DNA from: Candidatus Sulfopaludibacter sp. SbA3
Lineage (GTDB): Bacteria > Acidobacteriota > Vicinamibacteria > Vicinamibacterales > UBA2999
Direction of reading: 5' to 3'
Assembly (NCBI GenBank): GCA_945903265.1
Contig: CAMDNQ010000023.1
Coordinates: forward strand, 1-45,041
DNA length: 45,041 nucleotides
Part shown: one piece after another, positions 40,516 to 42,103 of the stretch
How positions within the stretch are numbered: the first letter of the stretch is position 1
Layout of the letters: the number at the start of each line of letters is the position of its first letter
Translations under genes and position numbers: made by a program
Notes under the pieces: model-generated
The model's database searches: none
Told to the model about the DNA's origin: nothing
The model's input: only the letters and a program-made list of their open reading frames with translations

Positions 40516-40558
40516 TCCACACATCGTACGTGGGTCCGAAAAACGGAATTGTCCGGCC

Positions 40559-40577
40559 GTGTGCCGTAATCGCACAC
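40559..40577. promoter_or_regulatory. Inverted repeat in the sua5 / receiver-HTH divergent region
   Basis: GTGTGC (40559-40564) and GCACAC (40572-40577) are perfectly complementary around seven bases. It lies 43 bp from the sua5 start and 78 bp upstream of the regulator ATG at 40656. This is an operator-like dyad; the Fis-type protein encoded downstream is a candidate ligand. The rest of the 140-bp gap shows no gene. Confidence 0.35.
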
Positions 40578-40655
40578 CGTGCGCCTTGGAGCTCCTGCAA
40601 ATGCTCAGAAACATTGGGAATATGGGGTGGTCGCACACTTGCTCCGGGCGGCCCC

Positions 40656-41096
40656 ATGGCCAGCAATCCCCGGCTGTTCGTCATCGACGACGACCGCGCC
40701 GTGCTCTCGCTTGTGGGGACGACAGTCACCTGCCTCGACGTGCTTCAGGCGCTTCGAAACCTGAGCCCGCAGTGTGAGGCGGTTCTGATGACGGGTTACA
40801 AGGACCTCGAGACGGCGGTTGACGCCGTGAAACAGAGCCTGCCGGCAGGGACCGAGGCGCTGCGGGTGCCGTCACCCGGCGCGAGCCCCTCTCAGCCGGC
40901 GCCGCTGGTCGATGTCGCCCGCGAGCATATCGTCCGGACGCTGGAAATGGTGGAGGGCAACAAGGCGGTCGCCGCCCGTCTGCTTGGCGTCAGCCGCCGC
41001 GCGCTGTATCGCCAGCTCGAACGCCACGGCCTGCACCGGCGCATTCCTGCGCGCCGCGGGGCTGGCGCGGTCCATCAGCTGCACCCCGCACGGTAA
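40656..41096 (+). CDS. Fis-type HTH regulator with internally deleted receiver domain
   Basis: 146 residues. The N-terminus MASNPRLFVIDDDRAVLSLV is the first strand of a receiver, with the acidic Asp11-13. It then passes, after only about a dozen residues, into ALRNLSPQCEAVLMTGYKD, the fourth strand and following helix of a receiver with Thr46. The segment carrying the phosphorylated Asp and its loop, and the later Lys-Pro, are missing. A Ser/Pro linker leads to a Fis-type HTH (about 88-127: REHIVRTLEMVEGNKAVAARLLGVSRRALYRQLERHGLH). The layout recalls NtrC-type regulators without the AAA domain. It cannot be phosphorylated normally. It overlaps the HD-GYP gene by one base (TAATG). Confidence 0.8.
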   Translation: MASNPRLFVIDDDRAVLSLVGTTVTCLDVLQALRNLSPQCEAVLMTGYKDLETAVDAVKQSLPAGTEALRVPSPGASPSQPAPLVDVAREHIVRTLEMVEGNKAVAARLLGVSRRALYRQLERHGLHRRIPARRGAGAVHQLHPAR

Positions 41097-42103
41097 TGGA
41101 GGGAGCGCCTCCAAAGAGCCGGCCGACCCGGGTGCTGGTGGCTGACGATACCGACAGCATCCGCGCCCTGTTCGAGAAGCTGCTCGCGAGCGACGGCTAC
41201 CAGGTCACGAGCGTCGTGGATGGGTTGCAGGCGCTCGAAGCCGCGCACAGCATCCGCCCGGACGTCGTTCTGCTCGATGTCGGCATGCCGGGACTCGACG
41301 GCATCGAAGTGTGCCGTCGGCTGAAAAGCGATCCGACCATGCGTCTGACCCCGGTCGTCCTGGTGACGGGACTGTCGGACCTCGCCGACCGCATTCGCGG
41401 AATCGAAGCGGGTGCCGACGACTTCCTGACCAAGCCCGTCCATCCGCACGAGCTGCGCGCCCGCGTGGCGTCGCTGTCGCGGATGAAGCACCTGACGGAC
41501 GCGCTTGATTCGGCGGAGAGCGCGTTCATGGCGCTGGCGCTGACCATCGAGGCGCGCGACCCGACGACGAGGGGCCACTGCGAGCGTCTGGCGAAGTGGG
41601 CCGTGCAGCTGGGACGCGCGCTGGGCCTTGCCGCCGACGATCTCGATGCGCTCCACCGCGGTGGATATCTGCACGACGTCGGCAAGATTGGTGTCCCCGA
41701 CGCCGTGCTCCTGAAACCAGGACCGCTGACCGCACAGGAATTCGAGCAGATGAAGCGGCATACGGAGATCGGAGACACGCTGTGCGCTCCGCTGCAATCG
41801 TTGCGCGACGTCCGGCCGATCGTCCTGTCGCACCACGAGAAGCTGGATGGCAGCGGCTATCCGCAGGGACTGCGCGGAGACGCTGTTCCGGTGCTCGCGC
41901 AGATTGTCGGAGTCGTCGACGTGTACGACGCCTTGACGTCGGATCGGCCGTACCGGCTCGCGCTGGAGCCTGAAACGGCGGCGCGCCATCTTGTGGAAGA
42001 CGTGGAGCGGGGGCGGTTTTCGAAGCTGCACGTCGAGGCGTTCCTCGACAGCCTGCGGCTAACCTCCGCGGGTGTGCATCTCGAGGTGCGGGTCCCGTCG
42101 TAG
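41096..42103 (+). CDS. Response regulator with HD-GYP domain (probable c-di-GMP phosphodiesterase)
   Basis: 335 residues. The receiver (10-130) is complete: DD at 17-18, phospho-accepting Asp61 in LLDVGMPGLDG, Thr91 and Lys113 in LTKP. The HD-GYP domain follows, with HD at 193-194 (HDVGKIGVP), HHEKLDGSGYPQG (from 246) and VVDVYDALTSDRPYR. These motifs match active enzymes that break cyclic di-GMP, linking the gene to biofilm or motility control. No cognate histidine kinase is in the window. It is coupled to the degenerate regulator upstream, and its last 45 bp overlap the convergent moaA gene. Confidence 0.93.
   Translation: MEGAPPKSRPTRVLVADDTDSIRALFEKLLASDGYQVTSVVDGLQALEAAHSIRPDVVLLDVGMPGLDGIEVCRRLKSDPTMRLTPVVLVTGLSDLADRIRGIEAGADDFLTKPVHPHELRARVASLSRMKHLTDALDSAESAFMALALTIEARDPTTRGHCERLAKWAVQLGRALGLAADDLDALHRGGYLHDVGKIGVPDAVLLKPGPLTAQEFEQMKRHTEIGDTLCAPLQSLRDVRPIVLSHHEKLDGSGYPQGLRGDAVPVLAQIVGVVDVYDALTSDRPYRLALEPETAARHLVEDVERGRFSKLHVEAFLDSLRLTSAGVHLEVRVPS

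Follow-up and report, generated by a model that had tools for sequence, protein, structure and literature searches.

RegA, PrrA and ActR combine a receiver-like N-terminus with a Fis-type helix-turn-helix (HTH) and have no AAA+ domain. In plants, microProteins are small proteins derived from larger transcription factors; they keep binding and not effector function, and act as antagonists. Deletions near the receiver pocket have been noted among aspartate-less receivers, and up to 2015 ChxR and HP1043 were the only ones for which the loss of a piece of secondary structure there had been reported, according to an account that also places Acidobacteria second in the average number of aspartate-less receivers per genome (PMC4395418). 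Constitutively active or dimeric pseudo-receivers are treated in a 2025 review (PMC12632262). NtrC proteins lacking GAFTGA have been reported at sigma70 promoters, and the NtrC of Caulobacter is described as repressing some genes, including its own operon (PMC10274813). NtrC DNA-binding domains have been described as the evolutionary ancestors of Fis (PMC11407668). In a literature sample that was thin in subscription journals, no title was found that described a natural NtrC-type protein lacking both the phospho-Asp segment and the AAA+ domain.

The gene analysed here encodes a protein that lacks both. It lies in a 45,041-nucleotide stretch of DNA, hereafter the window, and its features are collected in Table 1. 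A reading made from the letters of the window alone (the sequence-only reading) had described the product as a receiver-Fis regulator in which the acidic triad and Thr46 are kept, the segment with the phospho-Asp and the Lys-Pro are absent, the DNA-binding HTH is intact and the gene is coupled by TAATG to a complete HD-GYP response regulator. All of these features were recovered. The D11-D12-D13 triad and T46 are present, and HTH_8 scores 37.6 bits (Pfam cut-off, 22), which identifies a Fis-type HTH. The TAA stop of the regulator overlaps the ATG of the HD-GYP gene in the window and in no other regulator locus that was read. The HD-GYP protein keeps DD, D, T, K-P, HD and GYP, and the same holds for all 12 HD-GYP orthologues compared; by family, it is a c-di-GMP phosphodiesterase. 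The receiver-Fis label describes what is left of the protein, a receiver remnant and a Fis HTH, and not its origin, which is a receiver-AAA+-Fis protein of the NtrC type whose AAA+ domain was lost too.

Table 1. Features of the short regulator locus and of the related gene pair (window positions unless another locus is named).
Feature	Position	Strand	Evidence
TTG 11 bp before the palindrome	40549..40551	+	TT invariant in 7/7 short loci, TTG at the exact offset in 6/7
Palindrome TGTGCCGTAATCGCACA, candidate enhancer/operator (UAS)	40560..40576	+	TGTGC-N7-GCACA in 7/7 short loci
Sigma54-like promoter TGGTCGCACACTTGC (GG-N10-GC)	40628..40642	+	Pattern scan; 69 bp below palindrome start
Short NtrC-derived regulator, 146 aa	40656..41096	+	ORF and translation, homologue comparison
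Receiver remnant, residues 5-60, predicted strand-helix-helix-strand-helix	40668..40835	+	Alignment, codon counts, structure model
Deletion junction 1, after T22; 37 residues with phospho-Asp absent	40721..40722	+	Alignment with long forms
Cys26 codon	40731..40733	+	C in 7/7 short forms, G in 19/19 long forms
Deletion junction 2, after K59; Lys-Pro segment, receiver remainder and AAA+ domain absent	40832..40833	+	Alignment with long forms
Fis-type HTH, residues 83-128	40902..41039	+	Pfam HTH_8 37.6 bits; fold match to 4l5e
Receiver-HD-GYP protein	41096..42103	+	Start overlaps regulator stop (TAATG)
AAA+-Fis/protease pair	L139 85-3017 (G000:C2 ~215.4-218.4 kb); L165, L184, L162, L181, L185, L186, L187		

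A receiver-AAA+-Fis protein, here called the long form, occupies the same locus in four genomes (G019, G020, G022 and G028). The G022 contig begins inside the gene, and this long form is absent from the upstream and receiver comparisons. The complete local long forms carry GETGTGKE and GAFTGA; those of G028 and G020 exceed the Pfam cut-offs for Response_reg, Sigma54_activat and HTH_8, and the Response_reg scores of two local long forms are 104.7 and 99.2 bits. Seven short forms were aligned with 19 of the 24 long proteins (L002, L036, L041, L042 and L087 were left out). The alignment shows two gaps, the other residues being collinear. The first gap spans 37 columns between T22 and T23 and includes the phospho-Asp column, which holds D in 19/19 long rows and a gap in 7/7 short rows. 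The second extends from K59 to the HTH linker and takes away the Lys-Pro segment, the remaining part of the receiver and the AAA+ domain. The Lys-Pro columns hold K and P in all 19 long rows and gaps in all seven short rows; thus, of the phosphorylation residues Asp, Thr and Lys, only the Thr is kept in the short forms. The AAA+ domain with GAFTGA, present in the local long forms, is absent in all seven. By general receiver topology, the removed elements are presumably most of helix 1, strands 2, 3 and 5, and helices 2 and 5. T22 is common to the short forms and the three local long forms only, the other 16 long rows having R. Given this shared residue and the collinear alignment, the local NtrC-type gene is the ancestor of the short form. 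Judged by these comparisons, it is the product of two in-frame internal deletions in the local receiver-AAA+-Fis gene, by which the phosphorylation chemistry and the sigma54 motor were removed. The HTH is little changed with respect to the local long forms.

An origin from a RegA-like receiver-Fis protein was rejected, as the nearest relatives are AAA+ proteins of the same locus. A relocated intact long copy was also sought in the short-form genomes; none was found at 84%, the identity between local long forms, and the best matches reached 53-63%. A full-length paralogue (G000:C27:16802-18190 and equivalents), 58-63% identical to the long form, occurs in six of the seven short-form genomes, and the G036 match is partial (53%). 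In the two long-form genomes searched, the next-best match to the long form reaches 45-47% only.

The short form was identified in 7 of the 43 genomes of the family, which represent seven genera (G000, the window genome, G017, G018, G026, G033, G034 and G036). The six other short forms match the window protein from residue 3 or 4 to residues 133-144 with 59-66% identity, contain no internal stops and feature the same two junctions. The orthologue alignment that the sequence-only reading had proposed thus revealed a conserved short form. A profile built from the seven proteins, with up to 24 candidates per genome scored, retrieved the same seven among the 162 genomes of the order (239-262 bits) and none in the 119 genomes outside the family; the next score under the same scheme, 119.7 bits, comes from the HTH portion of a long form.

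The gene order at the locus is Sua5-(YgjP-MsrB-MsrA, in many)-regulator-HD-GYP-MoaA-SurE, and the regulator slot is filled by a short form (seven genomes), by a long form (four) or by none. For instance, G015 keeps the HD-GYP gene without a regulator (L118 4921-5841), and both genes are missing from the locus in G016, G023, G029, G030 and G037. In several relatives, YgjP, MsrB and MsrA genes separate Sua5 from the regulator; the window has none of them at this place (40516-40655). In the 10 loci read, the Sua5-regulator gap is either empty or occupied by YgjP-like, MsrB and MsrA genes, joined in G020 by an amidohydrolase-like ORF; no histidine kinase was recognised there by eye. In the HD-GYP tree, the seven short-linked rows form one side of a branch (support 93/96). 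An IQ-TREE analysis of neighbouring genes, for which 17 of 24 rows were used, also placed the seven short loci on one side and the four long loci on the other with a support of only 19/37, and a FastTree placement of the long G028 beside the short G017 (0.984) was not retained by IQ-TREE. Neighbour genes neither confirm nor reject a single grouping of short-form loci. A single origin of the short form, followed by losses of the regulator/HD-GYP pair, is the simplest reading.

Response_reg (PF00072) leaves a sub-threshold trace in the window protein (14.8 bits against a cut-off of 30.2, residues 27-60), and it was the comparison with the local long forms in the alignment that revealed the receiver identity of the remnant. 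In being a receiver homologue without the phospho-Asp, the short form agrees with pseudo-receivers. D11, D12, D13, T46, Cys40 and Cys26 are invariant in all seven short forms. A structure model obtained with long forms in the alignment features a strand-helix-helix-strand-helix fold plus the HTH (mean pLDDT 75.8; remnant blocks, 65-82); since this model leans on full-length receivers, confidence in the remnant is moderate. The model obtained from the seven short forms alone is poor (mean pLDDT 57.3; remnant blocks, 41-56). In Foldseek searches, no PDB structure matched at E <= 0.001, and among the 50 matches listed most are Fis-type HTHs. The modelled HTH matches the DNA-binding domain of NtrC1 (4l5e; rmsd 0.7 over 43 columns, E 0.024), and an NtrX receiver is also found among these 50 matches (58 columns, rmsd 3.8, E 0.34).

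Codon comparisons (Nei-Gojobori, 21 pairs of the seven short genes) gave pN and pS values of 0.20 and 0.63 for the receiver remnant, 0.11 and 0.50 for the HTH, 0.52 and 0.56 for the linker, and 0.50 and 0.63 for the tail, counts that are indicative, because branches are common to several pairs and synonymous sites approach saturation. The remnant and the linker of one gene differ plainly. The counts indicate that the remnant and the HTH are under purifying selection, and that the linker and the tail are not.

A 17-bp palindrome, TGTGC-N7-GCACA, is located upstream of the regulator in each short locus, and the three long loci with readable upstream DNA have no full palindrome within 350 bp. The arms are 100% identical in all seven loci, and the 40-bp flanks show mean pairwise identities of 0.35 and 0.32. 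When the 400-bp stretch of each short locus was shuffled by dinucleotides, the palindrome arose in 0-4 of 2000 shuffles. A scan of the 162 genomes with TGTGCCRTNNTCGCACA yielded 11 matches, six of which are the operators of six short genomes, and the reversed control yielded 0; the palindrome of G036 differs from TGTGCCRTNNTCGCACA in the middle. Bare arms are not rare: 12 raw matches (6 places) were found in the window genome against 8 in the reversed control. When the arms are extended by one base, with both strands taken and full palindromes therefore counted twice, 31 raw matches are obtained in the six other short genomes (control, 5) and 15 in seven genomes that lack the short form (control, 11). 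Partial palindromes are found in the long loci. Compared with shuffles of the zone 130-160 bp above the promoter, the best of these match 8 of 10 bases in G020 (spacing 146, CGTGCCACGTACGCACG; equalled by 24/1000 shuffles), 8 of 10 in G019 (spacing 135; 41/1000) and 7 of 10 in G028 (spacing 147; 185/1000). Because such matches are near chance, ancestral use of the site by the parent protein is only suggested. TGTGCCATNTTCGCACA is also found near genes, judged by eye, in G131 and G073 (L152, L153), genomes from other families within the order. A different palindrome, TGTGCC-N5-GGCACA, recurs in G022:C423:3571, G026:C4:154, G030:C235:50173, G033:C2:77712 and G034:C23:167.

The sigma54-like site of the window lies 28 bp before the ATG. 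The spacing between the palindrome and the GG is 145, 147, 148, 148, 150 and 151 in six short loci and 69 in the window. TGG-N8-TTGC occurs at most 200 bp from the start in 8 of the 10 loci (seven short, one long), and the other two long loci feature near forms. Shuffled sequences gave a mean of 0.24, and 0/2000 reached 8; this figure overstates the case for a promoter, since the pattern was chosen after the sequences had been inspected and the loci share ancestry. A putative promoter layout is better argued from the spacing, which stays constant although the DNA is otherwise dissimilar. A stricter sigma54 pattern found nothing in any of the 10 loci, and the looser scan additionally produced one match above the palindrome in G000 and one in G034. 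The window genome contains rpoN, and no sigma70 promoter or terminator was found at the window operon by consensus scan. Palindrome and downstream sigma54-like promoter together form a candidate NtrC-type layout.

In eight genomes (G000, G018, G026, G028, G030, G033, G034 and G036), TGTGC-N7-GCACA also stands in the gap that separates a receiver-less AAA+-Fis gene from an S8 protease gene; six of these genomes, all except G028 and G030, carry the short form. The G000 copies contain the Pfam domains Sigma54_activat and HTH_8 without a receiver, and the neighbour contains Peptidase_S8. A sigma54-like promoter, CGGCA-N6-TTGCC, lies 117-140 bp beyond the palindrome, before the protease gene. Scored against the sigma54 consensus, this promoter reaches 9/12 bases in three of the eight genomes, and the regulator-operon promoters reach at most 8/12 among the sites listed. 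The receiver-less AAA+-Fis protein is likely a sigma54 activator, and the S8 protease gene its likely target. Consequently, at least six of the seven short-form genomes encode a motor-bearing protein whose apparent site is identical.

These observations lead us to propose, tentatively and with a probability of roughly 0.45, that the short form is a conserved, cut-down NtrC-type regulator that occupies the enhancer of its own operon without firing sigma54, i.e., a microprotein-like autoregulator of the HD-GYP operon. Among the options of the sequence-only reading, a phosphorylation-independent DNA-binding protein is the one that finds support. The Fis HTH would still bind the palindrome as a dimer, the receiver remnant possibly serving dimerisation or stability. 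Lacking the AAA+ motor, the protein could presumably not open a sigma54 promoter and may restrict how far a motor-bearing activator can reach this site. As the candidate for that activator we consider the receiver-less AAA+-Fis protein: its S8 protease neighbour has this very palindrome and, at a comparable distance, a sigma54-like promoter. Such competition might set the level of the operon and of the HD-GYP protein, and hence c-di-GMP. Points against this proposal are the lack of the full palindrome in the long loci, the commonness of the bare arms, the choice of the sigma54 pattern after inspection, the moderate confidence in the modelled remnant and the spacing in the window, which is 69 and not about 148; the palindrome could also serve the AAA+-Fis protein alone.

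The last point grows into a separate, doubtful reading, whereby the palindrome belongs to the receiver-less AAA+-Fis protein and the operon came under the control of that protein when the local regulator was deprived of its motor, the short protein acting elsewhere or as a protein partner. Acquisition of the site along with a change of activator would account for its presence at 7/7 short and 0/3 long regulator operons, and the palindrome stands at the AAA+-Fis neighbour gene also in G028, which has a long form at the locus, and in G030, which has no regulator. In contrast, the partial matches of the long loci, near chance as they are, occur at similar offsets (146, 147 and 135) and hint at an older reading of the site by the local regulator; moreover, the HTH of the short form has changed little from that of the local long forms. 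Alternatively, the short protein may be an architectural helper that binds the palindrome and bends or primes the DNA for another activator with a positive net effect, like Fis. A Fis-type HTH without a motor and a palindrome about 148 bp above a sigma54-like promoter in six loci would suit this role, and Fis is described as working with LuxO and sigma54 at Qrr promoters (PMC11407668). However, the activator itself seems to use this kind of site at the protease genes, so that a bound short protein would compete with it, and we consider a helper unlikely.

The other options had been raised by the sequence-only reading. Docking of the remnant on the neighbouring HD-GYP receiver, or shielding of it, is suggested by the adjoining genes in all seven short-form genomes and by the complete HD-GYP receiver, but the same HD-GYP protein is found beside a full-length NtrC in four genomes and without a regulator in G015, which weakens the case for a dedicated partner and makes it very improbable. 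The absence of the regulator in G015, and of the pair from the locus in G016, G023, G029, G030 and G037, shows that the pair is dispensable, as a gene in decay would be. Nevertheless, the same two junctions recur in genomes of seven genera without internal stops, the remnant and the HTH are under purifying selection, and the upstream sites are conserved, so the short form represents neither decay nor an assembly deletion, save for a very slight residual chance. Full receivers do exist in relatives, as a decaying gene would lead one to expect, but further damage was not seen. An extension of the autoregulator proposal, which we regard as improbable, holds that the remnant is a new small module made from a half-cut receiver fold and signalling without phosphorylation, through the thiol of the newly fixed Cys26 or obligate dimerisation. 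The protein would then be a bacterial counterpart of microProteins, an activator cut to an antagonist at its own enhancer, with the operon handed to another sigma54 activator.

If the autoregulator proposal is true, the locus shows how a signalling activator became a passive DNA-binding protein by two deletions and was then kept, a step of the kind proposed for the origin of Fis from NtrC. One locus offers a multi-genus series of long, short and absent regulators in which the candidate enhancer and the sigma54-like promoter are still readable, and the short protein may link c-di-GMP turnover by HD-GYP to a regulator without phosphorylation.

Like ChxR, HP1043, RitR and FrzS, the short form is receiver-derived, has no phospho-Asp and is probably phosphorylation-independent. 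Unlike these proteins, it has lost whole strands and helices rather than undergone substitutions, scores far below the Response_reg cut-off and has a Fis-type output. It resembles NtrC proteins without GAFTGA, such as those of Caulobacter and Rhodobacter and VspR, in being of the NtrC type and presumably making no sigma54 contact; these proteins keep receiver and AAA+ domains, whereas the short form lacks the AAA+ domain and most of the receiver. The combination of a receiver-like N-terminus and a Fis HTH without an AAA+ domain is shared with RegA, PrrA and ActR, but the short form has no phosphoacceptor, is derived locally from an AAA+ protein, and in the window scores 42.6 bits with their NCBIfam model, the cut-off of which is 250. 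As in Fis, a Fis-type HTH occurs without an AAA+ domain; unlike Fis, the short form keeps a receiver remnant, has one operon-linked candidate site and, in the window, scores 15.8 bits with the Fis NCBIfam model against a cut-off of 99. In contrast to plant microProteins, it is bacterial, and at the locus it stands in place of its full-length parent and not beside it.
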